Below are positions 25,162 through 64,000 of a stretch of 64,000 nucleotides of DNA, one piece after another. Every line of letters starts with the position of its first letter. Positions within the stretch are counted from its first letter, which is position 1. Source of the stretch: Mucilaginibacter defluvii (GTDB lineage: Bacteria; Bacteroidota; Bacteroidia; Sphingobacteriales; Sphingobacteriaceae); the NCBI RefSeq assembly GCF_039543225.1, contig NZ_BAABJI010000001.1:647193-711192 (forward strand), read 5' to 3'. A program made the translations under genes and the position numbers. The notes under the pieces are model-generated. The model saw only the letters and a list, made by a program, of their open reading frames with translations. It was not told where the DNA came from and did no database searches.

Positions 25162-25173
25162 GACTGAAAATTT

Positions 25174-26427
25174 TTAGTTATTATTCGATAGATTTCTTCT
25201 TTTTTTCTTTTTGCGGGTCTTTTTAAATGGGTATGGAACATAATCGCCACCTGTCTCCTGATGCAGCAAGGCGTCCATTATTTCACTGCCTGAGGGTTTA
25301 CTTTGTTGCTCGGCCTCTTCTTTTGTAAACAGTTGCTGTTGACGAGATACTTGCTCCTGTTTTACTCCAGGTTGGTTGATGGTTGAGAGTCTTTCTAAAA
25401 GTCCTTTTGCGCTGTAGGCTTTGCCAAGATCGCTGCCATTGAATACGCACCGGTTTACATTATCAACGTAGGTCAGCCCGTAAATAATACCATCTTCATT
25501 TTGGCGGACAGCGAGGTATATACCATCCTTTATTAAATTGTCAGCAAGGGACTGCAGGGACTGCCGTGGTGATTTGAGGAGCGACAGCTCTATAGCATTC
25601 TTTATTCTCGTCTTTAGATTATCTGCTGGTGCGTTCTCAAAGCGTTTTTCGAGGAATTTCAGTGTTGGCTGGCTATGGAATAAGCTGGCCTTTACTGGCA
25701 CACCTACCGGAGTACCATCTCGGTCAATGATCTTATAGAATAAACCGCCGTTGCGATAGGTACTGGAATCTTTCAGTCCACGGTCTGCAATAACATTATA
25801 CTGGCGCAGGATCGCGTTCAACTCTGGCAGCGATTTGTATTTATAAGACGGCAGAACAGCATCCAGGACGTTGGCAATGGAACGCCGGGATTCTGACTTG
25901 CCGTATTCTATTTTAGCTGAGTAAGCAGATTTAATTTTGTAGTCCTTTTTTGCCTGGTCTTCTGCCCGTACAAGGTTATACTCCTGCTCCAGTTCTTTGC
26001 GTGCCGGTTCCGACAATTTTCTGCCGATATTCTGCGTGTCTATTCTTGAACCGTCAGCTTTAATTTTTAATGATACGAGGTGCAGGTGCGGATGACCGGC
26101 ATCGTGATGCTGGTACACTAAATATGGCTGGTCACCAAACCCGATGCGCTCCATATAGGCCGATGCAATTTCAGTTAGTATAGGCTTAGTAAGCGCCGTT
26201 TCCGACGGGTCAAAATTGAGCGAAATATGGATACTGTTGCGGGTCACATTCTTGTTCAACTCTGCCTGTTTCAGCAGCATATTTAACCGCTGTGCAGCAC
26301 TTAATTTTTCTGTGTCCAAAGGATAATTTTGGGCGCAAAGCAATTCCGCTTTTCCTTCTTTTAACTTTAGTTCGTTGTAGTTAAAAATGCGCCTGATCGA
26401 GTGTCCGGATTTGATTACTGCAACCAT
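25174..26427 (-). CDS. mobB: MobB relaxase/mobilisation nuclease
   Basis: A 417-aa relaxase of the Bacteroidota MobB type. The metal-binding histidines are in HHDAGHPHLHLVS (about residues 104-116), with a Bacteroidota-type N-terminus (MVAVIKSGHSIRRIFNYNE). It would nick oriT and become covalently attached to the transferred strand. It overlaps mobA by 13 nt, and the C-terminus is strongly basic (KKTRKKKKRR). The likely oriT lies just upstream of mobA. Confidence 0.9.
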   Translation of the reverse strand: MVAVIKSGHSIRRIFNYNELKLKEGKAELLCAQNYPLDTEKLSAAQRLNMLLKQAELNKNVTRNSIHISLNFDPSETALTKPILTEIASAYMERIGFGDQPYLVYQHHDAGHPHLHLVSLKIKADGSRIDTQNIGRKLSEPARKELEQEYNLVRAEDQAKKDYKIKSAYSAKIEYGKSESRRSIANVLDAVLPSYKYKSLPELNAILRQYNVIADRGLKDSSTYRNGGLFYKIIDRDGTPVGVPVKASLFHSQPTLKFLEKRFENAPADNLKTRIKNAIELSLLKSPRQSLQSLADNLIKDGIYLAVRQNEDGIIYGLTYVDNVNRCVFNGSDLGKAYSAKGLLERLSTINQPGVKQEQVSRQQQLFTKEEAEQQSKPSGSEIMDALLHQETGGDYVPYPFKKTRKKKKRRNLSNNN

Positions 26428-26804
26428 TGTGAAGCTATTTTTTCAATGTAATCTTTGATCTCTGCAACCTTGTTTTCAACAAGCGTTTTACCCTGTTCCC
26501 AGGAACGGATAAGCTTTAGGGCATCATCCGATTTATCGATTGTATGCAGCCTTTTTACCGCTTGATTAAAGTTGTTGCCGATGTTGTTTAACTCCTTCCT
26601 GAGCAGGATGGCTTCTGCCATAAGGTCATCTAAAGATTTGTCTCGGTAAGTGGCAATAACCGGTTTGCCGAGCAACACATGGCGGGCGTAATCGCTCAAT
26701 TTCCGGCAGGTAGTCTTCCTGAAATTCTTGCTAATAGTATCATGCTCACTATCTGTCAGGCGGATGTGCAGCCACTTTTTTCTGAAATCCTGTTGCTTTT
26801 CCAT
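26415..26804 (-). CDS. mobA: MobA-like mobilisation accessory protein
   Basis: A 129-aa basic protein with an N-terminal DNA-binding region (KKWLHIRLTDSEHDTI, ribbon-helix-helix-like), followed by the pattern LLRKELNNIGNNFNQAVKRL, which is characteristic of MobC_2/Bacteroidota MobA relaxosome proteins. It is the first gene of the mobABC operon and would bind the adjacent oriT. Confidence 0.85.
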   Translation of the reverse strand: MEKQQDFRKKWLHIRLTDSEHDTISKNFRKTTCRKLSDYARHVLLGKPVIATYRDKSLDDLMAEAILLRKELNNIGNNFNQAVKRLHTIDKSDDALKLIRSWEQGKTLVENKVAEIKDYIEKIASQWLQ

Positions 26805-27745: not shown

Positions 27746-27961
27746 TTACATTATAGACTTCGGGTCTTCAGGCCCGATGTCTATAATTTTATGGCTCATC
27801 AGCCATACCCTGAAATCATCCGGCGCTGCGGGTTCAAAATGAATAATCCGGTTCTCAAAACCTTCTTTCAGCATTATGGAAAACAATTCCAGTGTTTGTT
27901 TGAATTTATAGAGTTCATCAGCCTTATATAGCAGGCCAGGGTATTCATTTTTAGGGGTCAT
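27746..27961 (-). CDS. Small protein paired with an upstream structured RNA (copy 1)
   Basis: A 71-aa acidic protein. It shares a pattern with the 64-aa product at 45929-46123: PG(L/F)(L/F)Y.A near the start, then a Phe-rich helix, then IH(H)F.P..PD(D/E)F..WL. The two are therefore probably paralogues. A conserved ~160-nt structured element begins 33 nt upstream on the same strand, the same arrangement as for the second copy. No known domain is recognised. Confidence 0.6.
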   Translation of the reverse strand: MTPKNEYPGLLYKADELYKFKQTLELFSIMLKEGFENRIIHFEPAAPDDFRVWLMSHKIIDIGPEDPKSIM

Positions 27962-27994: not shown

Positions 27995-28154
27995 AAAAAG
28001 AACGCGGGGCAACTTGAACTGATAGGCACTTAGGAAGCCTGAAAACACAAGTGCACCCGCGCCATAGCGCGAGCGTAATCACCTGTGTCCTGTCTCAAAA
28101 AAGTTCCTAAGTTTTTATCAGTTGGACACTGAGCAATACGCTGAACAATATTTT
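27995..28154 (-). ncRNA. Structured RNA-like element, copy 1 (5' of small gene)
   Basis: The core 28017-28123 folds as aactgata/tatcagtt and acttagga/tcctaagt stems separated by a ggc/ttt internal loop. A middle stem acaca.gtg/cac.tgtgt follows, and a tip cgcgc/gcgcg with loop cata. The tip context gtgcacccgcgc and the flanks aaaaag..acgcggggca and caatatttt are shared with the copy at 46159-46320. The outer stems differ in sequence between copies but keep pairing, which supports a functional structure. Strand is assigned from the adjacent small gene. Confidence 0.65.
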
Positions 28155-45928: not shown

Positions 45929-46123
45929 TCAACCGTTGTCAGACTCGGTTCCGAAAACATTATTTTTTTTTAACCACTGTAAAAACTCATCAGGATCTTC
46001 CGGCATAAAGTGATGTATCCGGCCATCAGCCAGCAATAAGGAAAACCAGCCGTTCACCGCGTAATATTTCTCGATGTAAGCGGCCTCGTAAAAAAAGCCG
46101 GGGAAGCGATCGGGCTTAGCCAT
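45929..46123 (-). CDS. Small protein paired with an upstream structured RNA (copy 2)
   Basis: A 64-aa protein with the pattern PGFFYEA...IHHFMPEDPDEFLQWL, related to the product at 27746-27961 (see that entry). The matching ~160-nt structured element starts 35 nt upstream. No other domain is seen. Confidence 0.55.
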   Translation of the reverse strand: MAKPDRFPGFFYEAAYIEKYYAVNGWFSLLLADGRIHHFMPEDPDEFLQWLKKNNVFGTESDNG

Positions 46124-46158: not shown

Positions 46159-46320
46159 AAAAAGATACGCGGGGCATCTCTATCTGACGGAGGCATTAGG
46201 CGTGCCAGGACAAAGTAAAGTGCACCCGCGCGTTAGCGCGAGCGTGTTACCCTTGTCCCTTTGTCCTTGAAAGTGCCTAATTTTCCGTCAAAGGATTCGT
46301 GTAAACCGCTGCAATATTTT
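46159..46320 (-). ncRNA. Structured RNA-like element, copy 2 (5' of small gene)
   Basis: The core 46185-46290 folds as tgacgga/tccgtca and attaggc/gcctaat, separated by the same ggc/tt-type internal loop as in copy 1. A middle stem ggacaaag/ctttgtcc and the tip cgcgc/gcgcg with loop gtta follow. The helices keep pairing while their sequences differ from copy 1 at 27995-28154, and the tip gtgcacccgcgc and the flanks are conserved. Confidence 0.65.
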
Positions 46321-51800: not shown

Positions 51801-52357
51801 TTGTTTATACATCATTCGAAAAAGAAAGCGATGAAAACAATATCGATGATAACGTTAACAATCCGGATAACATGGATATGGGCAACGGATCAAGAATTAG
51901 TTATTCGCCTTTGAAAATCAACAACGCCTACACCGTTATGGGTGATTATAACTTTCCGGCAGAAGAAGGCATTTCATTTACTGTCAAAAATAATAAACAA
52001 TACATTCTTACAGTTTGGGCAACCGATCATGCTATAAATCTTGACGGCGCGCCACCAGATCGCACTGGACCAACTATCAATGGCTATACCTATTATGAAT
52101 TTGACATTGCTCCTGGTTCAACAAACCTTACATTTTCCGGTGATAGGGGTGTGTACATTGATGAGTTTCGGGTGTACCCGAAGGGCGCAAAAATGAGTAC
52201 CACTAGCTACGACCCCACATTCGGAAAAACTGCAGAGTGCGACATCAACAATCGCATAAGCTATTTTGAATATGATGGCTTGGGAAGACTTGTTATTGTA
52301 AAAGATGACAGAAGGAATATTATTAAAACCTACGAGTACCATTATAAAACCAAATAA
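48869..52357 (+). CDS. Secreted YD-repeat/Rhs-family protein, first partner
   Basis: A 1162-aa protein. The start at MRKVVLLLLGL is chosen because it gives a signal peptide. The N-terminal segment LQSGSAEYSLPIFTYSDPKAGLSS is the beta-sandwich entry typical of Bacteroidota YD-repeat proteins. The C-terminus contains YD-type repeats (NRISYFEYDGLGRLVIVKDD). There is no toxin domain. The next gene starts 11 nt after its stop; the first protein may deliver or encase the second. Confidence 0.75.
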   Translation: MRKVVLLLLGLTVSMIITAQVQLQSGSAEYSLPIFTYSDPKAGLSSTITLNYSAGGGIRAGQLSSNVGLGWDLVASGEIERIQNGQPDDQYNPIPYTGAGNHLILKRDTYDDQFNQYYGDGFLYTPYSVDDIPKSIAIQPRFGKKQWYFGPLDYKQSPMALADREQDVFSCNLNGRILQFVIGKNRTIECLDDSKLKIEFTESDMTSSKIRTKINCFIVTDETGLRYKFNALELSDAVNLTETYSEKDNDFTFNVFRSKRTDNYIVTKWHLTEISNALTGERIIYNYTDVNIDVLTDKNVSSTLINGQTAKSLVLTENRTFVKGKRLISVQFPDGHSLELYYGGHIRIDVPGDEVLNGIVLKYSNRIVKRFDFLQSYFYKKQIVATTAFAQNPAYDKRFARLCLKGLQVSGIDGVTLPPYQFDYYTGSESQDPKDIVPSRYTFSTDEWGYYNKSGFVDDEATTYDKNKLYGLLNYFLHRQIFPNAATFGMLKSVTLPSGGKTTYEYEQNNFSSGQIEDYVAGVRVKKITVFDDEATSSNQVTEYRYVLENGYSSGKYFEGTGSFTIGRAISIRKSDNYDQGGIFLYDQATKAGINAINKVGGYLVNITLSVVNVGWAGGPIGFAAGIYIACLAPTIYGFFDQWDDAYMSITNLSSFHNQNRLPFLYSRVEYSTVSAQNSGKTVAEFSVPANWQEMENLQFPYSAKQRYEPWRYGLPIKTSIYNSAGALISITENTYQIITTPLDNNFRSCKIDADHYLSGPVDWPVHNDDDVDPTWIKREFYNMKKGRSVLSSTLTKLYNSSNAILSEQEVFYEYNSSNNLLAHTYSSNSKGEIEGKSIYYSDDYDNSNVAIHAMKDNHIIGVPLCTVLWRQAQLGATKLMVSAAATEYQLLSSGRLRPVKKYSTNLSQPVANSLTDNPDPANPYNYSFFEQEGDLVYNMWGDLINVRDTREGNHAMIYGYHKRRIVADVVGASPDEVVYTSFEKESDENNIDDNVNNPDNMDMGNGSRISYSPLKINNAYTVMGDYNFPAEEGISFTVKNNKQYILTVWATDHAINLDGAPPDRTGPTINGYTYYEFDIAPGSTNLTFSGDRGVYIDEFRVYPKGAKMSTTSYDPTFGKTAECDINNRISYFEYDGLGRLVIVKDDRRNIIKTYEYHYKTK

Positions 52358-52367
52358 ATTTTTGAAG

Positions 52368-55300
52368 ATGTTAAATCGATTCATCTTTGCTTTACTGATT
52401 GCACTTATTGGTTTTTCAGCATCTGCACAGGAGTCCATCACCGGACCTGATGTTGCAATTGAAGGACTTTCCTATACCTACAATCTTGACCCTTCTAACT
52501 ATCCGGCTGCGGGAAGTCCTGGCACCTGGATAATAAAAGGGGGTGTTATTCAACAACAAAACGCAGATGCTGCAAACGGGACGATATATGTAACAGTTCA
52601 ATGGAGTTATCTGAGCTCTAATATGGACCGTGATGGAAGTGTCGCTTACAAATACTCAAACGACAAAGGGTTTAGTATTCATGTGAACATAATTGACTGG
52701 TATAATGCTGTAGTAGATTGCAGTACAATTGCGCCACTATCCCAAGAACCAGAATATTTAGCTACACCACAGGTTATAGCAACGCCAGGATGCGCTGTAC
52801 CTAACGGGATGCCTTTCACAATTGTATACCAATGGGCTTATGCTACCCTACCTGGTATTTACTATGGTGAGGGAAAAACTGAATTTATTGACCTGAATAC
52901 GATCACGTGGACAGATATTCCTGGTGCAACAAACTATAACCTGACTCCGTTTTCAATGAACTATTTAGGCACCACTGTATACAGACTTCGCACGAAAGTT
53001 ATAGCAACAGGAAGCGTGCCCTTGCCAGCACGAAATACTTTTTTTAGCTACGCTTTTGTAAAGCTGAGTGAATTTGATGCGGGTTCTATCAGCTATAATA
53101 CACAAGAACCCTATTTTCAAACAGTAAATCATTCTTTTGCCTGGGCATCAGTTCAAGTTGGTTTAGGTACGGCACCCCTGCAAATAGGTCAGCTACCTTC
53201 TAATGGGGGACTTTGTACTTCTAAAACCTACACATGGCAGGTTTCTTATGATGGCGAACCGTGGCAAGACATTTATACTGGCGTCGATCTGCCCTCGCAA
53301 TTTCACCCGGTAGTAAATATTAACACAAAGATTAGAAGAAGAGTTGAATGTGCCGGTGTTGCCCTCTACTCAAATACACTGACATATGACTATATATATA
53401 ACTCCCCCTGGACAGAGAACAGGAATTACCTACGGATAAACAGTGTTGAGATTCCCGGCGTAAAAAGTTGGGCACAGGCTGATGCATTGTCTATTGGCGA
53501 GAAGCAGCAGGGAACTACCTATTATGATGGATTGCTGCGCCCTATCCAACAAATATGTAAAGAAACCAGTGCTGATGGTGACATCGACGTTTGGAGTGAT
53601 GTAGTCACCCACATCGAGTACGATGGTGCCGGCAGGAGCGAAAAGCAATACCTATCTTATCCTTCTCAAACTAATATTGGTCTTTTTAAAGAAAATGCGA
53701 AGGCGGAACAAATAGATTTCTTTCATAACTATTACAATGAAGGCCCTACTGCCAATACCTTTCGTCAATTAGAGTTTGACAATAATCCATTATCCAGAGC
53801 GGTTAAAAGAAGAGAAGCAGGTGAATCCTGGGGTAGTAATACAAATTATAAGGCTCCGGTAGTTGATTATAGCTTTAATAAGGCACAGGAAAACGTTCGT
53901 ATATGGAATATCGGTGCGGCACCGGGTGACTATCCCAGTACAAGTACTACATATGCTGAAGGCAGTCTCTACAAAATCACACTGAAGGATGAGCAGGAAA
54001 AATTAACTGTCCAATATATTGATTTTAGTGGTCAGGTTATATTCTCTAAAGTTCAGTTAAATGACGCGGGGCCAAATCTTGATATGGATGGCTATGATGG
54101 TTGGTTATGCACCTACTACGTATACGACGACTTTGGTCGTTTTAGATTCGAAATTACGCCAAGTGCCGTAACAGCACTGAGGAGCTTGAATTGGAATTTA
54201 GCTGGAAACCCAACCATCATAGATGAATTATGCTTTTACGCTGATTATGATGCTAAAGGTCGCCAGATAATTAAACATTCCCCGGGTGCGGGTCAGATAC
54301 ATTCAGTTTACGATAGCCGTGATAGGCTCGTGCTTACTCAAGATCAAAAACAGCGAGCCCTTGCTAAGTGGAGTTTCTGCCTTTACGATGAATTTGATCG
54401 CCCCGTAGCCAATGGTTTGTTTGAGTCAACGGAAAATCGATCCAGCCACCAGTCGTTTGTTGATAATTCTACTCAGGGAAAGGTTAATGTAACGCTATTT
54501 ACCGGCATTTCTGAAACTGTCGCGGCCTATAATCCTATTGCCGGAGGCGGGTTTAGTTGCAATAACTGCAGTAATGAAGTAATCAACAAGGTATATTACT
54601 ATGATGAAAATTCTTTTACTGGAAGTGCAACTTTTGATCCCGGCTATTCATTCGATGGCGTATATTCTTCAATTGCTGAAACATCAGAGTTATCGTTCAG
54701 GGTCAATGGCCATGCCGTTGGTTATAAAGAAAGGGTAATTGACCAATTACATGATGACAACAATCCAGGGAATGACAGGTTTCTGACAACAACAATCTTT
54801 TATGATGAGCAATTAAGAAACTTCGAAACGATTTCCCAAAATATCAAAGGTGGATTTGATATCAGCGTCGAACTGTTTGACTTTACTGGCAAAGTAATTA
54901 ATGATTTTGGCCGGCACGCATACCCCAATCATGCGATGGACGGTTTTCAAATTTTTAGTACATACTATTACGACCAGGTTGGACGCTTTCTTTACGGACG
55001 TAGAAAATACGGTAGCAATAATTCCTGGAAACAGGTTAAGACACTGCTTTATGACGTATTTGGTAGAATAAAAACAAAAGCATTAGGTCAGGACTACTGG
55101 ACCGCTACACCTGCCCTCGAAACACTAGAATATAGTTATAACATTCATGGATGGTTGACTGGCATCAACAGAGAGTATGCGTTATCTAATGTTGACCATG
55201 ACCAGAGAAACAAATATTTTGGATTAGCACTGGATTACGATAATAAAAGCGGAGAGTTCTTGAATAGTCGGCGTAATGGCCAGATAAATGCAGCCGTTTG

Positions 55301-58064
55301 GAAAACACAAGGCGACAATGTAACCCGGAGATTTGATTATGGTTATGATAATATCGGTCGGTTTGCCAGCGCTTCTTATTTGCAGAAAGATCAGCCTTCA
55401 GGACAGTGGAGTAATTTAACAGCTGACTTCAGCGTCAAGGGTATTTCCTACGATGAAAATGGAAACATTTTAACCTACCAGCGAAAAAGCCAGTTGCCCG
55501 GGCAGCTTGGCGGTACAATCATAGACGACCTTGAGTATCATTATAAGTATCGGAATGGTATAATGACTAACCAGTTGGACAATGTCATTGATCATGCGAT
55601 TGGCGATTTCAAGATGGGAGATTTCTATGGCGGTAGTTACAACCAGCAAAATGCTTATGAATATGATGATAACGGCAATTTGATCAAGGATGAATATAAG
55701 CACCTGAGCAATACTGGATCGATTGAATGGAACTATTTAGATAAACCCTGGCGTATTAAAAAAGATGGCGTTTCAATTACCGAATTTGTGTACGATGCAA
55801 GTGGCGGGAAGCTTCAGAAAATTGTTACCCAATTGCCCACCATTGCAAACAACAATCAAACAACTGTAACGACTACCACATACCTGGGGGATTTTATTTA
55901 CGAATACACAACCACATCGCCCGCGGATGAGCTGAAATTTATACTCTTTGAAGAAGGTAGAATCAGAATTACCACTCCTGTTAATACCTATGGCAGCCAG
56001 ATACCTGCCCTCGAAATTTCAGGCGGCATTCAATTTCCTGCCATTTCTAAGATTGGTGTGTTTGATTATTTCGTCAGAGATAATCAAGGGAGCACAAGGA
56101 TGGTGCTTACTGATGAAGTTCATAAGGAGCGACATGCATGTACAATGGAAACGGCTAATTCGGCCGTACAACAATATGAAGAAATCACTTTTGGAAATGT
56201 TGATAATAGCGGCAACGTAAACTCATCGAACGAAGTAGTAGCAACCAGAGTTTTAAAAACAACAAAAAACTGGCAATGCAATTCAACAGGAAACTATGTT
56301 AGCAGACTTTTGGCAACATCAACCGATGGTGTTGTAGGGCCTAACATGTTTCTAAAGGTGATGTCTGGTGATAAAGTAAGTGCAAACGTATCTTCCTATT
56401 TCCCAGAGGATGATCAAAGTACCAACGTTCCTTTATTAACTCCATTGGCAAACATACTGGTTGGTAATTTTAATAATGCTGTATCCGGTTCACTGCTCAA
56501 AAATAATATTAGTAGTATCAATACTGAACTGGTAGACCCTTTCGGTTCACTTGTCAACTTTTTAACAACTCAGGAAGCTAATGCCAACCCGGGTCTTCCT
56601 AAAGCTTATTTAAACTGGCTCTTTTTTGATGAGAGGTTTCAGTTAATTAGCGGCGGCTCTGCTCAAATAACCAGGGACTGCGGCCAGGTAACTATGCAGG
56701 AACAAATGGCGCCTAAAAATGGATATGCGTTTGTTTTTATAAGCAGTAGAATTCCTCTGCGGGCAGTTTATTTTGATGATTTGGTCGTAAATCATGAGCG
56801 TTCTGCAATATTGGAGGAAACACACTATTATCCTGGTGGGCTGAAAATGCAGGCTATCTGTGCGAAAGCACTAAGTAAAATGCCTAATCAATACGGCTAT
56901 CAGGGGGCCTTTGCTGAAGAGGATGAAGAAAGCGGCTATACTGAGTTTTTTCTTCGGATGTATGATCCGCAATTGAACAGGTGGATCAGCCCGGACCCTT
57001 TCGATCAGTTTGAAAGCCCTTATGTTGGAATGGGGAATGATCCGGTGAATATGATCGACCCGTCAGGTGGCTCTGTTCCCGTACCGGTACGATACATCTG
57101 GAACGCTTCTAAGCCGCTTGCAGAAGTTGTCGTTGTTTCATCGCCACGTATTGCAGGTGTCATCAGGCTTGGGGGAACAATGGTACTTACCAGCACCGGG
57201 GTCCGGTTGAATAATCTAACTCACCTGGCCACGCCATCATCATTTCCCCAACCTGCCGAAGTTACCCGGGCTGCAGCTGGTTCAGGATCTTCAGGTCGGG
57301 GGCAAACGGCCAGTGCTCCAAAGAAGAAATGGAGTGAAAAAATTAAAGCGACCAAGTTTGAGTATTCGGAAACCGACAATATTGCACAGTCCGGGGGCAA
57401 GTTTGTAACAAACGTTGTTTTTAGCCTTTGGAATGGGTTAGTTGGCACGGCGGAATTTATCGAAAGCCCAATTGAATCGACTGAGAATTTATTCAATGCC
57501 ATAGATGCCGGTGTCAGCTACATTCAAAATACAGAATTTGATGAAATTTTATCGGATGCCGGAGACTTTGTAAGCGATCCTCATAATTGGGAAGATGCTG
57601 TCGCGCTTATCGCGGGACCAAAAGTGTTGCCCAAAATAGGGAAGTTCGGAGGCAAAGTTTTAAATGCTGCAGCGGACTTTGGATCTGCAGCTGTGGGTGC
57701 TGCAAGCACAGCTGCGGGTGCTGCGGGGGCGGCAGGGGCTGCTGTTATCCGCCGCGTTTTCGGAGCAGTGCAAAGACACCACGTAATACCCAATCAAATA
57801 TATAAGGAATTTAAGCATTTTATGCCCGACGGCTACAAGCAAAATGGAGCTTGGAACTTGAAAAAGCTGCCTCGGCCTTTTCATGGAAATCATCCTAAGT
57901 ATAACGACTTTGTTAGAAGAAGAATAAATTCGATGTTACAAAATGGACCTTTATCCGATCCTGGGTTAAGAAGCTTACAAAAAGAACTTAGATTTGAAAT
58001 GAATGATATTTTAAAGAACGGTACACACCGAACTTTAAATGATGCATATAGATTTAGATTATGA
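52368..58064 (+). CDS. Rhs/YD-repeat polymorphic toxin with HNH/AHH-like nuclease tip
   Basis: An 1898-aa protein starting with a signal peptide (MLNRFIFALLIALIGFSASA). Rhs YD-repeats fill the middle, for example YDVFGRIKTK and YDYGYDNIGRF. The core ends in the conserved YDPQLNRWISPDPFDQFESP...DPSGG (about residue 1540). After a Gly/Ala linker, the last ~100 residues carry QRHHVIPNQIYKEF and GNHPKYNDFV, an HNH/AHH-type nuclease signature, so the tip is probably a DNase. The shell would encapsulate and deliver it. It overlaps the immunity gene by 4 nt. Confidence 0.85.
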   Translation: MLNRFIFALLIALIGFSASAQESITGPDVAIEGLSYTYNLDPSNYPAAGSPGTWIIKGGVIQQQNADAANGTIYVTVQWSYLSSNMDRDGSVAYKYSNDKGFSIHVNIIDWYNAVVDCSTIAPLSQEPEYLATPQVIATPGCAVPNGMPFTIVYQWAYATLPGIYYGEGKTEFIDLNTITWTDIPGATNYNLTPFSMNYLGTTVYRLRTKVIATGSVPLPARNTFFSYAFVKLSEFDAGSISYNTQEPYFQTVNHSFAWASVQVGLGTAPLQIGQLPSNGGLCTSKTYTWQVSYDGEPWQDIYTGVDLPSQFHPVVNINTKIRRRVECAGVALYSNTLTYDYIYNSPWTENRNYLRINSVEIPGVKSWAQADALSIGEKQQGTTYYDGLLRPIQQICKETSADGDIDVWSDVVTHIEYDGAGRSEKQYLSYPSQTNIGLFKENAKAEQIDFFHNYYNEGPTANTFRQLEFDNNPLSRAVKRREAGESWGSNTNYKAPVVDYSFNKAQENVRIWNIGAAPGDYPSTSTTYAEGSLYKITLKDEQEKLTVQYIDFSGQVIFSKVQLNDAGPNLDMDGYDGWLCTYYVYDDFGRFRFEITPSAVTALRSLNWNLAGNPTIIDELCFYADYDAKGRQIIKHSPGAGQIHSVYDSRDRLVLTQDQKQRALAKWSFCLYDEFDRPVANGLFESTENRSSHQSFVDNSTQGKVNVTLFTGISETVAAYNPIAGGGFSCNNCSNEVINKVYYYDENSFTGSATFDPGYSFDGVYSSIAETSELSFRVNGHAVGYKERVIDQLHDDNNPGNDRFLTTTIFYDEQLRNFETISQNIKGGFDISVELFDFTGKVINDFGRHAYPNHAMDGFQIFSTYYYDQVGRFLYGRRKYGSNNSWKQVKTLLYDVFGRIKTKALGQDYWTATPALETLEYSYNIHGWLTGINREYALSNVDHDQRNKYFGLALDYDNKSGEFLNSRRNGQINAAVWKTQGDNVTRRFDYGYDNIGRFASASYLQKDQPSGQWSNLTADFSVKGISYDENGNILTYQRKSQLPGQLGGTIIDDLEYHYKYRNGIMTNQLDNVIDHAIGDFKMGDFYGGSYNQQNAYEYDDNGNLIKDEYKHLSNTGSIEWNYLDKPWRIKKDGVSITEFVYDASGGKLQKIVTQLPTIANNNQTTVTTTTYLGDFIYEYTTTSPADELKFILFEEGRIRITTPVNTYGSQIPALEISGGIQFPAISKIGVFDYFVRDNQGSTRMVLTDEVHKERHACTMETANSAVQQYEEITFGNVDNSGNVNSSNEVVATRVLKTTKNWQCNSTGNYVSRLLATSTDGVVGPNMFLKVMSGDKVSANVSSYFPEDDQSTNVPLLTPLANILVGNFNNAVSGSLLKNNISSINTELVDPFGSLVNFLTTQEANANPGLPKAYLNWLFFDERFQLISGGSAQITRDCGQVTMQEQMAPKNGYAFVFISSRIPLRAVYFDDLVVNHERSAILEETHYYPGGLKMQAICAKALSKMPNQYGYQGAFAEEDEESGYTEFFLRMYDPQLNRWISPDPFDQFESPYVGMGNDPVNMIDPSGGSVPVPVRYIWNASKPLAEVVVVSSPRIAGVIRLGGTMVLTSTGVRLNNLTHLATPSSFPQPAEVTRAAAGSGSSGRGQTASAPKKKWSEKIKATKFEYSETDNIAQSGGKFVTNVVFSLWNGLVGTAEFIESPIESTENLFNAIDAGVSYIQNTEFDEILSDAGDFVSDPHNWEDAVALIAGPKVLPKIGKFGGKVLNAAADFGSAAVGAASTAAGAAGAAGAAVIRRVFGAVQRHHVIPNQIYKEFKHFMPDGYKQNGAWNLKKLPRPFHGNHPKYNDFVRRRINSMLQNGPLSDPGLRSLQKELRFEMNDILKNGTHRTLNDAYRFRL

Positions 58065-58750
58065 CGAAATACCTACAGTTGAGAATATCAGTTGAACCTT
58101 CTATCGTTGGAGTAACGAATGGAGGATGTCAAGGTTGGATAGATGAAAAGAAATATCCTAAAAAGGACTATCTCGAACTTGTAACGTGCAACGATTACAA
58201 TGTTTTTAAAAGTTTAATTAAAAAAAATGAAACGTTTATCAGTCTTTTGGATAAGTCAAAAATAACTGATGTAATTTATTTCGGACCATTTTTACGGTAC
58301 TGCCCATTTATGGCAAGAACGCCTTTTTTTGAAACAATAAGCCATTTCAACATTGACGACTATTTTTTAACGGACGCAACTGTCAATAAAAAAGGTGTGG
58401 AATTAGTGGAGCAATACAAATTGTTTTGTTTATCCTACATTAACAAAGATTGGATAGATTTCAAGCAAACTACAGCTTCACTAAATGGGCAGATTACCGA
58501 AGACAAATTGTTGCATTTGGAAAGCTATGATCAATACCGGAATTCACTAGAAAAACATCCGTTATTGGGGTTAGTAACGGTTTACTTGAACAGTAAATTT
58601 GATCAAAGTCTCGATCTTTTCCGGCTACCGATCGGAGGGGGCGGTATTTTCATCTCAGAAAGACTAGCCACTTCCCTTTTTGAAGACCGCCAATATTCGG
58701 GGATAGAACTTGTCGATCATGGTACTCAAGTTTACTGTACAAGTAAATAA
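58061..58750 (+). CDS. Probable immunity protein for the AHH toxin
   Basis: A 229-aa protein whose start overlaps the toxin stop by 4 nt (ATGA), the standard arrangement of an immunity gene. The C-terminal segment GGIFISERLATSLFEDRQYSGIEL resembles the (I/F).S..L...L....I(T/S)G.E. pattern of DUF1629/Imm43-type proteins. No catalytic motif is visible. Assignment rests mainly on position. Confidence 0.7.
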   Translation: MTKYLQLRISVEPSIVGVTNGGCQGWIDEKKYPKKDYLELVTCNDYNVFKSLIKKNETFISLLDKSKITDVIYFGPFLRYCPFMARTPFFETISHFNIDDYFLTDATVNKKGVELVEQYKLFCLSYINKDWIDFKQTTASLNGQITEDKLLHLESYDQYRNSLEKHPLLGLVTVYLNSKFDQSLDLFRLPIGGGGIFISERLATSLFEDRQYSGIELVDHGTQVYCTSK

Positions 58751-59080
58751 GATGGAATATAAACTTTGAATTGTGAGGGTATGAATAGTTCTATAAAAAC
58801 TTAGAATTCCATAATGATTTATTACCATTCCTTTTTGATTTAGATTAAAAAATTATTAGTACGAAGGATTCGGTCAGTGTTGCATATAGCATCAAAACTG
58901 CAAGACTATTTAAAACAGTATGTTTTTAGCGGTGTTGAATTTTTACAATAAGCTGAGTAGTGAAAAATATTGAATGCTTTTAACCTTCATTAGGTAAGCC
59001 TTATCAAATCGACCACTCTGGTCGTGAGCTTTGTTAGTCGCTTTAGTCTAATCTATTTTTTAACCTTTAAATTTTGCGCT
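58751..59080. other. Non-coding gap upstream of the sigma-dCas12f pair
   Basis: AT-rich, with no gene. It contains a 6-bp hairpin cgacca/tggtcg at 59010-59024, 57 nt before the sigma start. An in-frame upstream ATG at 59024 would add 19 residues to the sigma gene; it is not preferred because it precedes the conserved domain. Confidence 0.4.
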
Positions 59081-59860
59081 ATGCAAAAGCGTATTGGAGG
59101 AACTCTGTCCGAAAGCGAAGTATTAGTACAGTTTACAAATGGTAATGAAACTGCCTTAAGGTCCATTTACAATGCCACGTCTGGTAAACTTATACGACAA
59201 GCGACAAAAATTGTGGGAGACAATTTTACTGCCAGTTGTATCGTACAGGAAGCTTTTCTAAAGGCCTGGGAGTTGCGTGAACGCATGCGGAGCATATTGC
59301 ATGTTTACCGTTTTCTGCGGCTGACCGTTACCTGGAAATGTTATGCCTGGCTTAATAAACCAGCTAATCGCTTCAGTCGTACTAAAACGATCTATTACGG
59401 TGATATGTCCTTGTTTGAGAATAGTTATTGTCAATCCGTATCATTTCCAAAGCAAGGCACTGAAGAACAGCAACTCGATGCCATAGGAAAAGTACTGCTC
59501 TATTTACCTGTAAAAAGCAAAGATATTTTTGACCTGTATTTCTCTAAAGGTTATAGCTATCGTAAGATTGCAGAAAGGTATGGGAGAAGTGTGCAGGGTA
59601 TATCTGCTGACATTAGACATTCGGTAGCAAAAGTGCGTCAGATGATACAGGTAAAGAGCGAAGAGACGAAGCCTGGAAAAACTTCATTGGCTGCTTATGA
59701 TGTGTTTCTTCAAGGTGTCCAGCTTACCATCTTCCGCCTCCGTTATGAACAAAAGCAAAGCTTCGAGTGCATTGCAAATACACTCGCCCTACCATTGACT
59801 GAAGTGCAGCGGCAATACGTGCGGTCCTATCATCAACTAAGAAAATGTAGTGCATTATGA
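59081..59860 (+). CDS. ECF-like sigma factor paired with the Cas12f-like protein
   Basis: A 259-aa sigma-70-family protein. Residues 8-85 read as region 2 (SEVLVQFTNGNETALRSIYN, ASCIVQEAFLKAWELRER). Residues about 140-185 read as region 4 (LLYLPVKSKDIFDLYFSKGYSYRKIAERYGRS). It is longer than usual ECF factors (about 190 aa): residues about 213-256 look like a second region-4-type helix-turn-helix. It overlaps the Cas12f-like gene by 4 nt (ATGA), so the two are coupled in translation. That pairing, rather than a FecR partner, is the reason to suspect RNA-guided recruitment. Confidence 0.75.
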   Translation: MQKRIGGTLSESEVLVQFTNGNETALRSIYNATSGKLIRQATKIVGDNFTASCIVQEAFLKAWELRERMRSILHVYRFLRLTVTWKCYAWLNKPANRFSRTKTIYYGDMSLFENSYCQSVSFPKQGTEEQQLDAIGKVLLYLPVKSKDIFDLYFSKGYSYRKIAERYGRSVQGISADIRHSVAKVRQMIQVKSEETKPGKTSLAAYDVFLQGVQLTIFRLRYEQKQSFECIANTLALPLTEVQRQYVRSYHQLRKCSAL

Positions 59861-60951
59861 ACGCTAAGCAAGTTACTACACGCAAAATACAGTTAATCAT
59901 TAACAGCGAGGATCCGCAGGAGGTGCAGAGGATATTCACTACATTATACCAATGGCAGTATGCCTGCTTTCGCGCAGCGAATTACATTTTCACTCATTAC
60001 TATATGCAGGAACGATTGAAAGACTTTTTCTACCTGTCAGAAGGTATCAAACTAAAGCTGGATAACGTGCTCAAAGATGAAAACGGCATGCTGAATACAT
60101 CGCGCCAGAATACAGTATATAAAGTACTGTCACAACATTTTAAAGGAACGCTGCCCTTACGTGTCCTGACTACGTTGAATACGCAGCTTTACAAGTATTT
60201 CACGGCGGAAAAAGACTATTATATCAAAGGTGAGCGTCCGGTTAGAAATTATCAGCGTAATATTCCAATTCCGTTTAGCGCCGGTGATCTGGTTAAGCTT
60301 CACCTTACTGAAGATGGTAAAAACTATAGTTTCAGTCTTTTTAAACAACCGTTCAGAACATATCTGGGAAATGGTCATGACAAATTTGAATTGCTCCAAC
60401 AAGTTCTGAACGGACAGGTGAAATTATGCGCAAGCGCCCTGCAGCTTTATAAAAAGAAAATCTATCTTCTCCTTACTACTGACCAGGCTATCAGCCCCGT
60501 TCAGACAATCGATCCGGATGTTGTTGCAGAAGCATCGTTGGGTATTGATCATCCGTTGGTGCTTACCATACAACGGGAGCGGTTTATTATAGGCAACCGG
60601 GAAGAATTTTTATACCAACGGCTGGCTATACAGGCTGCTATGAATCGGGTGCAGCAAACAACAGGAACAGCCCGTGGTGGCCATGGACGAGCAAGAAAAA
60701 TGAAAGCACTCGACAGGTTCAGCAAGGCTGAGTACGATTATGTGCAGCAGAAACTACATGTATACAGCCGCAGGCTGATAGATCATTGCGTGGATAATGG
60801 TGCCGGCACGTTGCTGCTCACACACCAGCAAGACAAGGAGGCGGCTGCAAAGGAAGATGCTTTCTTGTTACGGAACTGGAGTTACCATTCTTTTAAAGAA
60901 AAGATCATGTATAAGGCAGCTAAAGCCGGAATACTTGTGATTAGCGAATAA
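59857..60951 (+). CDS. Truncated, nuclease-dead-looking Cas12f/TnpB-family protein
   Basis: A 364-aa protein with TnpB/Cas12f layout: an N-terminal half that fits the recognition/wedge region, then RuvC-I LGIDHPLVL (D231), a helical arm (GTARGGHGRARKMKALDRFSKAEYDYV...), and a RuvC-II strand GAGTLLLTHQQD where the usual catalytic Glu is replaced. The chain stops at AAKAGILVISE, before the zinc finger and the third RuvC Asp of active enzymes. It should therefore bind a guide RNA and DNA without cutting. It is coupled to the sigma gene upstream and followed by a terminator-bounded non-coding RNA region. No transposase is nearby. Confidence 0.75.
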   Translation: MNAKQVTTRKIQLIINSEDPQEVQRIFTTLYQWQYACFRAANYIFTHYYMQERLKDFFYLSEGIKLKLDNVLKDENGMLNTSRQNTVYKVLSQHFKGTLPLRVLTTLNTQLYKYFTAEKDYYIKGERPVRNYQRNIPIPFSAGDLVKLHLTEDGKNYSFSLFKQPFRTYLGNGHDKFELLQQVLNGQVKLCASALQLYKKKIYLLLTTDQAISPVQTIDPDVVAEASLGIDHPLVLTIQRERFIIGNREEFLYQRLAIQAAMNRVQQTTGTARGGHGRARKMKALDRFSKAEYDYVQQKLHVYSRRLIDHCVDNGAGTLLLTHQQDKEAAAKEDAFLLRNWSYHSFKEKIMYKAAKAGILVISE

Positions 60952-61081
60952 CGACTGAGGATGCGGCTGCCTGTACAGCCTTATGGTGAGGTCAACCGAC
61001 ACTCACTAAATTCCACGGAAGAGGATATACAGCGAGTTCCACATTTTTTAAATTCTTGCACGTTTTCATTGAAAAGGGATG
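60952..61081 (+). ncRNA. Candidate guide RNA for the dCas12f-sigma pair
   Basis: A non-coding segment directly after the Cas12f-like gene and ending at a strong terminator. It holds two scaffold-like hairpins: ggctg/cagcc (60965-60969 and 60976-60980) and gtgaggtc/gac-a-ctcac (60986-60993 and 60998-61006). The hexamer TTCCAC then occurs twice (61011-61016 and 61037-61042) with exactly 20 nt between, a possible spacer (61017-61036). I found no matching target by eye in this window. Confidence 0.5.
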
Positions 61082-61110
61082 GCCTGGTATTTCTATACCG
61101 GGCATTTTTT
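61082..61110 (+). terminator. Rho-independent terminator of the candidate guide RNA
   Basis: A 9-bp stem gcctggtat/ataccgggc with a ttct loop (one G-T pair), followed by atttttt. Confidence 0.85.
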
Positions 61111-61118
61111 ATGATGAC

Positions 61119-61144
61119 AGGGCCCGCATAGAAATGCAGGCCCT
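61119..61144. terminator. Second hairpin, possible back-up terminator
   Basis: The stem agggcc..gcat/atgc..ggccct has one bulge on each arm. It lies 9 nt after the first terminator and before the sigma gene at 61244; no strong T-run follows. The remainder up to 61243 is AT-rich promoter territory for that gene. Confidence 0.45.
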
Positions 61145-61243
61145 TAAAACCAAAACTAACTGTGGCGTAAAATTATTGTAAAATCATTTTTAAATAATTG
61201 ATTTAATATTTAAATTTCGGATGCCCTTACAAGTCAAGTCCCC

Positions 61244-61816
61244 ATGATTACTGACGAAGCAGAACTTATTCAACTTCTAAATGCAAAAGACCAGCGGGCT
61301 TTCGCTATAGTCTATGATCTGTTTTGGGGCACCCTGTACATTCAGGCATTCAAGGTACTAAAGGATGAGGACGCGGCTAAAGACGTCGTGCAGGAGGTGT
61401 TTGTAGGCGTTTGGAACAGTCGTGCCCCCATTCAAGGTAACCTTTCAGGTTACTTATACGCCAGTACACGGTTTAAAACACTTAATTATATCCGTAATCA
61501 CAAGACACAATCAGATTACGTCGATCTATTTGGCTTATATATAGCAGACCATAGCAATGATGTTTTGGATCATGTGCTGGAAAAGGAATTGGAGGAAACA
61601 ATTGAGATGATGATCAGCAAACTGCCTGCAAAAATGCGTGAAGTGTTTGAACTGAGCCGCAAGGAGCATCTTTCACATAAAGAGATAGCGACATTGTTAG
61701 GCATATCTGAAGGTACAGTAAAGAGACAAACCAGTAATGCGTTAAGGCTGCTCAGGACTGGGCTGAGTGACATCGGTTATATTCTACTGGCGGTGATGCT
61801 GAAACATCTTACTTAA
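61244..61816 (+). CDS. FecI-like ECF sigma factor
   Basis: A 190-aa ECF sigma-70 of the Bacteroidota type. Region 2 is LNAKDQRAFAIVYDLFWGTLY...DEDAAKDVVQEVFVGVWN (VQEVFV motif) and region 4 is LPAKMREVFELSRKEHLSHKEIATLLGISEGTVKRQ. It would direct transcription of the downstream FecR-SusC genes in response to receptor signalling. It is separated from fecR by a small lipoprotein-like gene. Confidence 0.92.
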   Translation: MITDEAELIQLLNAKDQRAFAIVYDLFWGTLYIQAFKVLKDEDAAKDVVQEVFVGVWNSRAPIQGNLSGYLYASTRFKTLNYIRNHKTQSDYVDLFGLYIADHSNDVLDHVLEKELEETIEMMISKLPAKMREVFELSRKEHLSHKEIATLLGISEGTVKRQTSNALRLLRTGLSDIGYILLAVMLKHLT

Positions 61817-61898
61817 TCTTAGTTTATTTAATCAAATTTCTACATCTGACTGCTCCGAAGCGTGTCTGGTAAATAAACATCCTGAAAGATTCATCTTT

Positions 61899-62291
61899 AT
61901 GAAACGCTTTACGACTGCTCTCATTTCCATTACTTTCTTCTCCAACTGCCTTATCCCGGGCGCACCGCATTACCGCTATTATTCATCCAGCAAAACGCCA
62001 TCGAGAAAAATCACCTTAATATCCTTTCCGGGAAATAAATACACTTATGAGTATCGACCGGCCAACAGCCAGCCCGTGGATAGCGTTTTTTTATACGATC
62101 CTGTAAAGTTAGTTGAGCAAAAAATGCTTTATAAAAAAAATGATGACGGAAACCTATTTTCTATTATAAGTAAGGAGGATAAATCCGGAAAAAATATTCT
62201 GCAGAATCAATCATACCTGGTCGTAAAAATATATAAAAGTGGCGTTGTTGCTATTGATACACTCGCTGCAGAGAAAATGACTAAATTATAA
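61899..62291 (+). CDS. Small signal-peptide/lipoprotein-like protein between sigma and FecR
   Basis: A 130-aa protein with an N-terminal hydrophobic segment (TTALISITFFSNCLIPGA) containing a lipobox-like FFSNC. The rest is beta-rich and basic (YTYEYRPANSQ). It sits between the sigma gene and fecR, which are usually adjacent. No family is recognised; periplasmic or membrane location is likely. Confidence 0.6.
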   Translation: MKRFTTALISITFFSNCLIPGAPHYRYYSSSKTPSRKITLISFPGNKYTYEYRPANSQPVDSVFLYDPVKLVEQKMLYKKNDDGNLFSIISKEDKSGKNILQNQSYLVVKIYKSGVVAIDTLAAEKMTKL

Positions 62292-62351
62292 TTTCATCTT
62301 CTTCTACATCCTGTGCATTTGGCTCGTGTCTTAGGGTTATAAGTCAAATGT

Positions 62352-63467
62352 ATGGACACCAGAGAAGTCAGGCAACTTATCGACAAATATTTAAACGGTC
62401 AATGTTCTGACGAAGAACGGAGGTTGGTAGAAAGCTTTTATGCCGACCAGCTTTCATCAGGAGAAATTTCTGAAGAGATCGAGAGAGGCAATGAACTTAA
62501 AGCAGCGATGTGGAAGGTCGTGGCTGGCCATATCGAGCAACCGCCTAAACACAGATTATTCAACTTTCACAGATGGCCAGCTGCAGCTGCCGTACTGCTA
62601 ATCGCGAGTTGTACGATTGTTGCACTTTGGGTAGCTCGGACGGCTAAAGAACCTGCCCTTACCTTTACTATAACAGATATACCGCCAGGAACTCAAAAGG
62701 CTTTCCTGAAGCTGGCTGATGGTCAAGAGGTCATACTCAGTGATGCTAAAAACGGCGTTATTGCCACGCAAAGCCAAGCTACCATAACCAAAAATACAAA
62801 AGGCCAAATTGTCTATCAGCATCATGCTGATGCCAAGCCTGTTGGTATTAATGAAATCAGCACACCACGGGGCGGCGAATATCAGGTCGTATTACCAGAC
62901 CGCACGCATGTTTGGTTGAATGCTGCAACGACCCTCAAATTCCCGACTGCCTTTACCGGTAAAGAAAGAGTGATTGAGCTGGATGGGGAAGCGTACTTTG
63001 AAGTGGCAAAAGATAAAAAACATCCTTTCATTGTCAGGTCGAACGGACAATCTGTACAGGTACTCGGTACCCACTTCAACATCAAATCTTACAAAGACGA
63101 AAGTGCTATCGTTACAACACTGTTAGAGGGAAGCGTCACAGTGACCAAAAATGGTCATCAAACTTTGCTGATACCAGGTGAACAGGCTATTGCTACAGAT
63201 AAGATACAGGTAAGCGAGGTAGATGTAGATGCTGCAGTTGCCTGGAAAAATGGTAAAACAGTTTTTGATCACAATGATATACCAACAATGATGCGCGGCT
63301 TAAGCAGATGGTATAACGTAGATGTTGAATACAGAGGCAGCGTACCGCAAAGAAGTTTCACCGGCGGCATTTCCAGGCAAAGCAATCTTTCGGGCGTGCT
63401 GAAGATCCTGCAGTCAAGCGGTATCAATGCCAGAATAGAAGATAAGAAGATAGTCATTCAACCCTAA
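62352..63467 (+). CDS. FecR-family anti-sigma/regulatory membrane protein
   Basis: A 371-aa protein. The N-terminal cytoplasmic part is a sigma-binding helical region. A single transmembrane segment (about residues 78-96, AAAAVLLIASCTIVALWVA) follows, then the periplasmic FecR domain (TPRGGEYQVVLPDRTHVWLNAATTLKFP, LDGEAYFEVA, VLGTHFNIKSY). The C-terminus FTGGISRQSNLSGVLKIL is the domain that contacts the TonB-receptor plug. It links the SusC receptor to the sigma factor at 61244. Confidence 0.93.
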   Translation: MDTREVRQLIDKYLNGQCSDEERRLVESFYADQLSSGEISEEIERGNELKAAMWKVVAGHIEQPPKHRLFNFHRWPAAAAVLLIASCTIVALWVARTAKEPALTFTITDIPPGTQKAFLKLADGQEVILSDAKNGVIATQSQATITKNTKGQIVYQHHADAKPVGINEISTPRGGEYQVVLPDRTHVWLNAATTLKFPTAFTGKERVIELDGEAYFEVAKDKKHPFIVRSNGQSVQVLGTHFNIKSYKDESAIVTTLLEGSVTVTKNGHQTLLIPGEQAIATDKIQVSEVDVDAAVAWKNGKTVFDHNDIPTMMRGLSRWYNVDVEYRGSVPQRSFTGGISRQSNLSGVLKILQSSGINARIEDKKIVIQP

Positions 63468-63557
63468 TGAACATTGATAAACCCTTAATTTGATATGCCT
63501 ATGGTTAAAGCACAGTAGAAGTAATAGTTAATAGATTAGTTAACCCTAAAATAAAAA

Positions 63558-63585
63558 GCCGGTCAGTGCGCTAACACTGCCCGGC
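63558..63585 (+). terminator. Hairpin between fecR and the SusC gene
   Basis: A stem gccgg-t-cagtg/cactg-c-ccggc with a cgctaa loop and one mismatch. It is terminator- or attenuator-like, but the T-run is weak. It lies 84 nt before the SusC start. Confidence 0.5.
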
Positions 63586-63668
63586 CCATTTAGGGGAATA
63601 ACACACCGGAAAACCGGAAAAATCCTTCGACAAGATTTATTTAAGTATTAACCCTCTCAAACAAAAGT

Positions 63669-64000
63669 ATGAATTTTTATACGCTCTCTCACTGGGGGCG
63701 CATAAAGCAATTGCTTGTGATCATGAAACTAACTGTTTTCCTCATCATCCTTGCTTGCTTCCAGGTATCAGCGTCAGTTTATGCACAGTATAACGTATCG
63801 CTGACCGAAAAAAATGCGCCCTTGTCTAAAATTTTCAAAAAAATTGAATCTCAAACAGGCTACAGCTTCTTTTATGATGATAAGCTGTTAACCGGTACCC
63901 ACAACATCACACTTACATTAAAGAACGCCACCTTAAAAGAGGCATTGGATAAATGTCTGGCAGATCAACCACTGACCTATTCTGTGGTGGACAAAACCAT
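63669..64000 (+). CDS. SusC/RagA-like TonB-dependent receptor, N-terminal part (3' end outside window)
   Basis: 110 residues are visible up to the window edge. A signal peptide (MKLTVFLIILACFQVSASVYA, internal ATG at 63723; the upstream ATG at 63669 gives a longer leader) is followed by an STN domain: NAPLSKIFKKIESQTGYSFFYDD and ATLKEALDKCL. STN-containing SusC receptors signal through FecR to an ECF sigma factor, matching the upstream genes. The transported substrate cannot be told from this part. Confidence 0.9.
   Translation, partial: MNFYTLSHWGRIKQLLVIMKLTVFLIILACFQVSASVYAQYNVSLTEKNAPLSKIFKKIESQTGYSFFYDDKLLTGTHNITLTLKNATLKEALDKCLADQPLTYSVVDKT

Follow-up and report, generated by a model that had tools for sequence, protein, structure and literature searches.

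A candidate RNA-guided transcription cassette was found in the window, the 64,000-nucleotide (nt) stretch of Mucilaginibacter defluvii DNA analyzed here (contig NZ_BAABJI010000001.1, positions 647,193 to 711,192 of the forward strand). On the plus strand, a sigma factor gene, a gene for a nuclease-dead Cas12f homologue (dCas12f), a guide-RNA-like segment and a terminator-like site follow one another in that order. The sigma factor, dCas12f and the predicted guide RNA very probably form an RNA-guided transcription complex that brings RNA polymerase to a guide-matched DNA site. In the dCas12f-sigmaE class, the guide matches genomic DNA that is preceded by a 5' G and lies ahead of a gene, typically susCD; RNA polymerase is recruited, and transcription starts at a fixed distance from the R-loop. 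Homology and anatomy support the locus as a further member of this class with all three parts present, as a preliminary description of the same DNA had proposed, because both proteins are homologous to those of a solved complex, a conserved scaffold lies 3' of dCas12f, and guides of relatives match G-preceded sites before susC genes.

No Pfam model matched the Cas12f-like protein, and the NCBIfam models guided_TnpB, TIGR01766 and Cas12f2 scored only below threshold. The protein belongs to a family of 535 proteins at E <= 1e-3, with a length of 360-369 amino acids (aa) in 118 of the best 120. A profile of 30 members matched the "Nuclease-deactivated Cas12f" chain of PDB entries 9n9c, 9n9m, 9n9o and 9n9q with an E-value of 1.3e-163 over 362 of 365 positions; the single sequence reached 1.9e-103 against the same chain. 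The AlphaFold2 (AF2) model had a mean predicted local distance difference test (pLDDT) score of 79.2. Its top Foldseek matches were 9n9m, "dCas12f-gRNA-DNA complex (partial R-Loop)" (4.7e-36), and 9n9c, "dCas12f-gRNA complex" (4.2e-34), with 43-46% identity to the solved dCas12f chains in these alignments. Homology search and structure prediction had been named beforehand as checks on the assignment, and both bore it out.

With what we take to be the catalytic residues of AsCas12f as reference, the RuvC-I Asp (of GVDLG in Cas12f nucleases) aligns to S227 and the RuvC-II Glu (of QME) to T322. The end of the chain corresponds to residue 361 of 422 in AsCas12f (7wju), and the third Asp, in RuvC-III, and the zinc ribbon lie beyond it. 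The preliminary description had correctly noted the replaced Glu and the early end of the chain, but had read D231 as the RuvC-I Asp. D231 instead aligns to the Asn of GIN in Cas12f nucleases, a column that holds Glu or Asp in most family rows of alignment A1 (the window dCas12f and 29 homologues taken from the 119 others listed). Hence D231 cannot be counted as the catalytic Asp and all three acids are missing, which strengthens the nuclease-dead assignment. As judged by these alignments, the window dCas12f is without any of the three catalytic acids and is nuclease-dead. The dCas12f chains of 80 related loci all stop within a few residues of a common point, and the positions invariant in A1 are kept in the window protein.

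The reading frame upstream, described earlier as a sigma-70-family gene, is intact, as is that of dCas12f, with which it shares an ATGA overlap. Pfam detected Sigma70_r4 above the cut-off (1.2e-8) and Sigma70_r2 below it (0.0013), and NCBIfam detected TIGR02937 above and TIGR02985 below the cut-off. The sigma4-like C-terminal extension reaches past the usual length of an extracytoplasmic function (ECF) sigma factor, and its residues R221, F228 and I231 are invariant in the 20 rows of alignment A4. The rows were drawn from the related loci because the protein search yielded just one sigma homologue besides the query. Residues 37-254, the C-terminal extension included, matched chain 9n9q_C, "RpoE", with an E-value of 1.9e-18; the entry is titled "RNA-guided transcription complex" and was released on 2025-12-24. 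The same chain was the top Foldseek match to the AF2 model of the sigma factor (mean pLDDT 80.6; E 2.0e-9; 20% identity). By a fixed criterion, the sigma gene is adjacent to dCas12f in 73 of the 80 related loci. Five further loci have a sigma-like open reading frame (ORF), recognized by eye, farther upstream or in a split frame, and two are cut by a contig end. A 554-aa protein (P0062) in which sigma region-4 domains are joined to dCas12f was weighed as a natural fusion but not accepted as one: it is a single sequence without sigma region 2, and the intervening stretch reads like a frameshift.

The non-coding segment 3' of dCas12f, previously described as structured and bounded by a terminator, is a predicted guide RNA. 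Its scaffold, first recognized in relatives by eye and then by pattern, consists of stem 1 (GGCUG/CAGCC), stem 2 (GGUGAG/CUCACU) and an antirepeat-repeat-like stem 3, together with a pseudoknot in which the stem 1 loop CUGUA pairs with UACAG at the 3' end. This loop-repeat pairing resembles the pairing of trans-activating CRISPR RNA with CRISPR RNA in Cas12f systems. Alignment A2, on which model R1 is based, holds 34 of the 44 scaffolds read, the window included. The named structure comprises 22 pairs, and 98.5% of its cells are paired over these 34 scaffolds. Changes on both sides were found in 8 pairs and 58 cells, compared with shuffled means of 5.2 and 18.0, and none of 500 shuffles reached either value. 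The structure also scored far above slid controls, a comparison in which its derivation from the same sequences favors it. Four of the five pseudoknot pairs are invariant, and the fifth is U-A in 32 rows and C-G in two, one of them the window. Folded by itself, the window RNA has a different minimum-energy structure (z -2.3), in which pairing of the loop with the 3' end replaces stem 1.

R1 matched the window scaffold with 65.1 bits (E 1.5e-13), the window itself being a row of the model. In a genome search it was the sole match (6.8e-13), a weak negative for other sites with 150 of 1577 candidates scored. A scaffold match was present in 80 of the 80 related loci, 29 of which had supplied model rows; the weakest was in L052 (E 0.011). 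The scaffold lies within 600 nt 3' of dCas12f in 74 of the 80 loci, with up to 10 copies per locus. L007 and L008 carry 10 and 8 guide RNA matches, respectively, behind one dCas12f, with mostly different guides. The terminator scan gave four terminator-like sites in the stretch, compared with 2.7 in shuffles, and the site behind the guide has the most pairs and a T6 run. With these three components, dCas12f would bind the guide RNA and open an R-loop without cutting, the C-terminal extension of the sigma factor would contact dCas12f, and RNA polymerase would start downstream of the R-loop.

In relatives, the predicted guides match about 16 nt of DNA after a 5' G, in a conserved leader that lies ahead of susC genes and also of the sigma-dCas12f operon. 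The guide tables were made without the two weakest of the 142 R1 rows (L013 3668 and L005 7214). A match within the guide's own locus at <=2 mismatches in 16 was found for 16 of 139 guides and for 0 of 139 shuffled guides. A 5' G precedes 12 of these 16 matches, including all 10 in the leader. Ten loci from Flavobacteriia carry the guide GCGTGGGCTCTCTTAT or a close variant. In each, it matches a G-preceded site ∼1 kb 5' of dCas12f at 0-2 mismatches in 16; the ten guides are near-identical and hence do not represent ten independent events. The matched site sits in a conserved leader hairpin of ∼92 nt that precedes the sigma-dCas12f operon itself in these loci, an apparent self-targeting. Sigma-dCas12f loci with a guide-matched leader include L029, L044 and L064. 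A leader model (R2) built from an alignment of 23 chosen leaders (A3) matched at E <= 1 in 27 of the 80 related loci. Of 26 loci in which the distance was measured, 24 have the leader end 71-178 nt ahead of the sigma start, and the other two have it 498 and 1907 nt ahead.

The same leader occurs at other sites. In 11 genomes, 39 sites matched the guide at <=2 mismatches, guide RNAs included, compared with 5 for the reversed pattern. The 30 sites that were fetched and read comprised 11 guide RNAs, 7 known leaders of sigma-dCas12f operons, 10 leaders elsewhere (Table 1) and 2 that were neither. A SusC N terminus (TIGR04056) follows 7 of the 10 leaders elsewhere, its start lying 510-630 nt downstream in the six cases where it is clear. 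Two of the leaders (L103 and L115) are followed not by SusC but by related-looking HEPN-domain ORFs (Pfam 9e-5 and 1.5e-5), and one lies at a contig end. By reading, a small ORF is often found upstream of the leader and divergent from it; of three scanned, two encode helix-turn-helix proteins and one had no Pfam match. The downstream segment GAGTTCCACGCC, followed by a T-run, can pair with the hairpin element GGCGTGG..CTC by reading, and in L034 and L056 both sides of this pairing have changed together (CCACACC with GGTGTGG). The leader may plausibly act as an attenuator. Rfam gave no credible match in the window or in the four leader-bearing loci tried.

Leaders also occur in the window's genus. 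For the guide GGCTCGCTTATTCGTG of two same-genus genomes (G035 and G036), sites with 2 mismatches were found at about the control level; one of them, in G036, has a 5' G and falls within a leader (53.7 bits, 3.4e-9), and the two in G035 are inside ORFs. Three leaders were detected in the genome of M. defluvii itself (Table 1). The products of the small ORFs behind the two leaders in the window look alike by eye. The third has a helix-turn-helix-like ORF upstream (by reading), the same arrangement as at the guide-matched leaders of Flavobacteriia. The genome-wide R2 search, with 150 of 2181 candidates scored, returned one site and missed the two others found by direct search of the window, so genome-wide negatives with either R1 or R2 are weak.

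Several observations weigh against an RNA-guided transcription complex at this locus. No convincing target for the window guide was found in its own genome, either by pattern searches allowing few mismatches or in the upstream regions of susC genes (35 of the 57 TIGR04056 hits, those above the family cut-off, the 22 below it being left out). At <=2 mismatches in 16, there were 3 non-self sites, all inside ORFs, compared with 6 for the reversed control; at <=3 mismatches in 15, there were 66+53 sites compared with 82+88. The genome has 7 further copies of the exact 9-nt seed, every one inside an ORF. Nine sites are G-preceded and have <=2 mismatches to the first 14 bases of the guide. Eight of them are inside predicted ORFs; the remaining one (L134) is intergenic and lies 88 nt ahead of the gene for a 787-aa DUF7133/cytochrome c protein, with just 12/16 matched. 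The best G-preceded match before the 35 susC genes is 13/16, a value equalled by 27 of 100 shuffled guides. Furthermore, no leader of the relatives' type precedes the window sigma gene (R2 best 8.6 bits). Among the relatives, 6 of the 16 close own-locus matches are outside the leader and 4 lack the 5' G. The Foldseek match of the sigma model to 9n9q_C is weak, with a template modeling (TM) score of 0.33, and the predicted TM scores (pTM) of the AF2 models are modest (dCas12f 0.54, sigma 0.39). Finally, the cassette is sporadic: of 37 genomes in the genus, 5 of them <90% complete, 4 carry it.

Before the 35 susC genes there were 9 matches of >=12/16 (6 distinct sites), whereas shuffled guides averaged 3.3; none of them is striking, and we would not take this mild excess for a target. 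An exact 18-nt scan of viral contigs with the window guide gave 0 matches. Against the three own-genome leaders, in the order of Table 1, the guide has at best 6, 7 and 6 mismatches in 16. The segment GAGTTCCACGCC at <=1 mismatch has 8 sites in the genome (control 6), none with a leader in front. The first nine bases of the guide resemble GAGTTCCAC, which is conserved just downstream of the relatives' leader; this likeness was set aside as a possible coincidence. The window guide either tolerates seed mismatches, or aims at DNA outside the assembly, or is idle here.

The last of these options corresponds to a possible, if less probable, explanation, in which the cassette looks intact and is idle, having recently arrived on mobile DNA with a guide that has no target in this host. 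It would account for the missing own-genome target, and it fits the presence of the cassette in so few genomes of the genus and the relaxase gene upstream of sigma in three same-genus relatives (L094-L096). However, the reading frames are intact, the invariant positions of the family are kept, the pseudoknot change from U-A to C-G affects both sides and preserves the pair, and a G-preceded leader site in G036 is matched by the guide there with 2 mismatches. There is little chance that the direct target is the neighboring FecI-FecR-SusC unit, reached at an imperfectly matching site within 61054-63669. This was the expectation of the preliminary description; the genes are physically adjacent, susC follows a guide-matched leader in relatives, and the guide tail recurs in part as a T/A-rich 14-nt repeat at 61187-61200 (86%). 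The repeat nevertheless does not include the seed at the 5' end of the guide, no match of >=12/16 was found on either strand from 61054 to 63700, a SusC-like ORF is close by in only two of the related loci, and a FecI/FecR pair normally brings its own sigma factor.

We consider it very unlikely that dCas12f is instead an RNA-guided repressor of the TldR type, blocking transcription by DNA binding with the sigma gene as a passenger. Nuclease-dead relatives of TnpB, such as TldR, can repress, and no convincing target was located for the window guide. Against repression stand the adjacency of the sigma gene across the related loci, with the ATGA overlap here, and the best matches of both proteins, which are to a solved transcription complex. 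The probability of an active Cas12f or TnpB nuclease of a transposon or CRISPR system is close to nil. Sub-threshold guided_TnpB and Cas12f2 scores and the annotation of some relatives as "IS605 OrfB family transposase" point toward a nuclease; the three acids and the zinc ribbon are missing, and the chains of the related loci share their stopping point. No CRISPR-like array was found beside the dCas12f gene among the 20 largest of 25 direct repeat families (58750-64000).

The RNA-guided transcription complex proposed here can be compared with three groups of known systems. Both window proteins are homologous to those of the dCas12f-sigmaE systems (9n9c, 9n9m, 9n9o and 9n9q), including the truncated Cas12f C terminus (365-aa chain) and the sigma extension, and the likeness extends to the scaffold beside dCas12f and to the G-preceded guide matches of relatives ahead of susC. 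The differences lie in the limited identity noted above for dCas12f and the sigma factor and in the lack, in the window, of a leader before the sigma gene and of a located guide target. The type V-F Cas12f nucleases (AsCas12f, 7wju/8j12; Al3Cas12f, 9nzo/9nzr) are related to the window protein in fold as far as the end of RuvC-II, whereas the window dCas12f has neither catalytic acids nor zinc ribbon, has a sigma partner, and has no CRISPR array seen beside it. IS200/IS605 TnpB and TldR share common ancestry with the window protein, and their RNA is likewise encoded beside the protein gene. The window fold is nevertheless nearer to Cas12f chains (9n9m, 4.7e-36) than to TnpB (8h1j, 1.4e-10), and the absence of the RuvC acids and the association with sigma distinguish it from IS605 TnpB. 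TldR represses a guide-matched promoter and has no sigma partner; the window dCas12f does have one.

Genes for FecI, FecR and SusC follow the cassette, as first described (Table 1). They are probably a separate unit, because a SusC-like ORF was found in just 2 of the 80 related loci (searched with a single SusC query at E < 1e-20 over stretches of 4.6-13.1 kb) and because the interval 61054-63700 holds no guide match of >=12/16; a FecI/FecR pair normally supplies its own sigma factor. A nearby susC as a general rule for the related loci was rejected on the count of 2/80.

The relaxase genes upstream of sigma in the three other same-genus carriers (L094, L095 and L096) had Pfam E-values of 3.3e-31, 1.1e-30 and 1.7e-31, and recombinase-like ORFs lie nearby by reading. 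Carriage on a plasmid was considered and rejected, there being no near DNA match and, by protein, just three remote transposases. Elsewhere in the window, a conjugation/mobilization block (23158-26804) encodes a coupling protein (YWFCY, T4SS-DNA_transf), a relaxase and a MobC/NikA-like protein. A 1919-aa protein encoded at 52305-58064 is RHS-like by reading and has a DUF6443 domain and a C-terminal AHH nuclease domain (Pfam 7.3e-6). The 229-aa ORF directly after it (58061-58750) may encode an immunity protein.

Table 1. Features of the cassette, its neighbors and the conserved leaders (window positions unless another contig or locus is given)
Feature	Position	Strand	Description and basis
ECF-type sigma factor	59081..59860	+	259 aa from ATG; sigma2, sigma4, conserved C-terminal sigma4-like extension; Pfam, NCBIfam, PDB, Foldseek
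dCas12f, nuclease-dead Cas12f homologue	59857..60951	+	364 aa; PDB profile match, alignment, AF2/Foldseek
Predicted guide RNA scaffold	60963..61033	+	R1 model match, covarying pairs
Predicted guide GAGTTCCACATTTTTTAAAT	61034..61053	+	start inferred from homologues whose guide match begins directly past the scaffold 3' end
Intrinsic-terminator-like site	61082..61109	+	9-pair stem then T6; terminator scan
FecI	61244-61816		ORF and Pfam
FecR	62352-63467		ORF and Pfam
SusC	from 63669; whole ORF L089 5862-9428		TIGR04056 match C1:711257-714418
Own-genome leader	28025-28115	-	R2, 41.1 bits; before small ORF 27746-27961 (-), near mobilization genes
Own-genome leader	46192-46284	-	R2, 35.6 bits; before small ORF 45929-46123 (-)
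Own-genome leader	C1:1332084-1332182 (L137 5085-5183)	-	R2, 28.7 bits; before SusC gene
Guide-matched leaders elsewhere	L103, L108, L109, L111, L114, L115, L117, L119, L124, L125

The leader common to the targets and to the operon itself is the most interesting lead. In a bolder and rather unlikely scheme, RNA-guided transcription in Bacteroidota would be built on this one shared ∼92-nt leader hairpin with its competing terminator arm, which is found ahead of susC operons, of small ORFs in the vicinity of conjugation genes and of the sigma-dCas12f operon. One guide would then switch a regulon together with its own machinery, a positive feedback. In the genus of the window, the cassette would travel on mobilizable DNA, and the window guide would be aimed at leaders on incoming elements and not at the host chromosome. 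Systems that naturally activate transcription by RNA guidance form a class of very recent date, with structures released in December 2025. The locus contributes a compact member with all three parts to it. Covariation supports the pairing of its guide RNA, and no target is visible in the host for its guide. As the conserved leader matched by Flavobacteriia guides also lies ahead of the sigma-dCas12f operon, feedback control of such a regulon can be tested directly.

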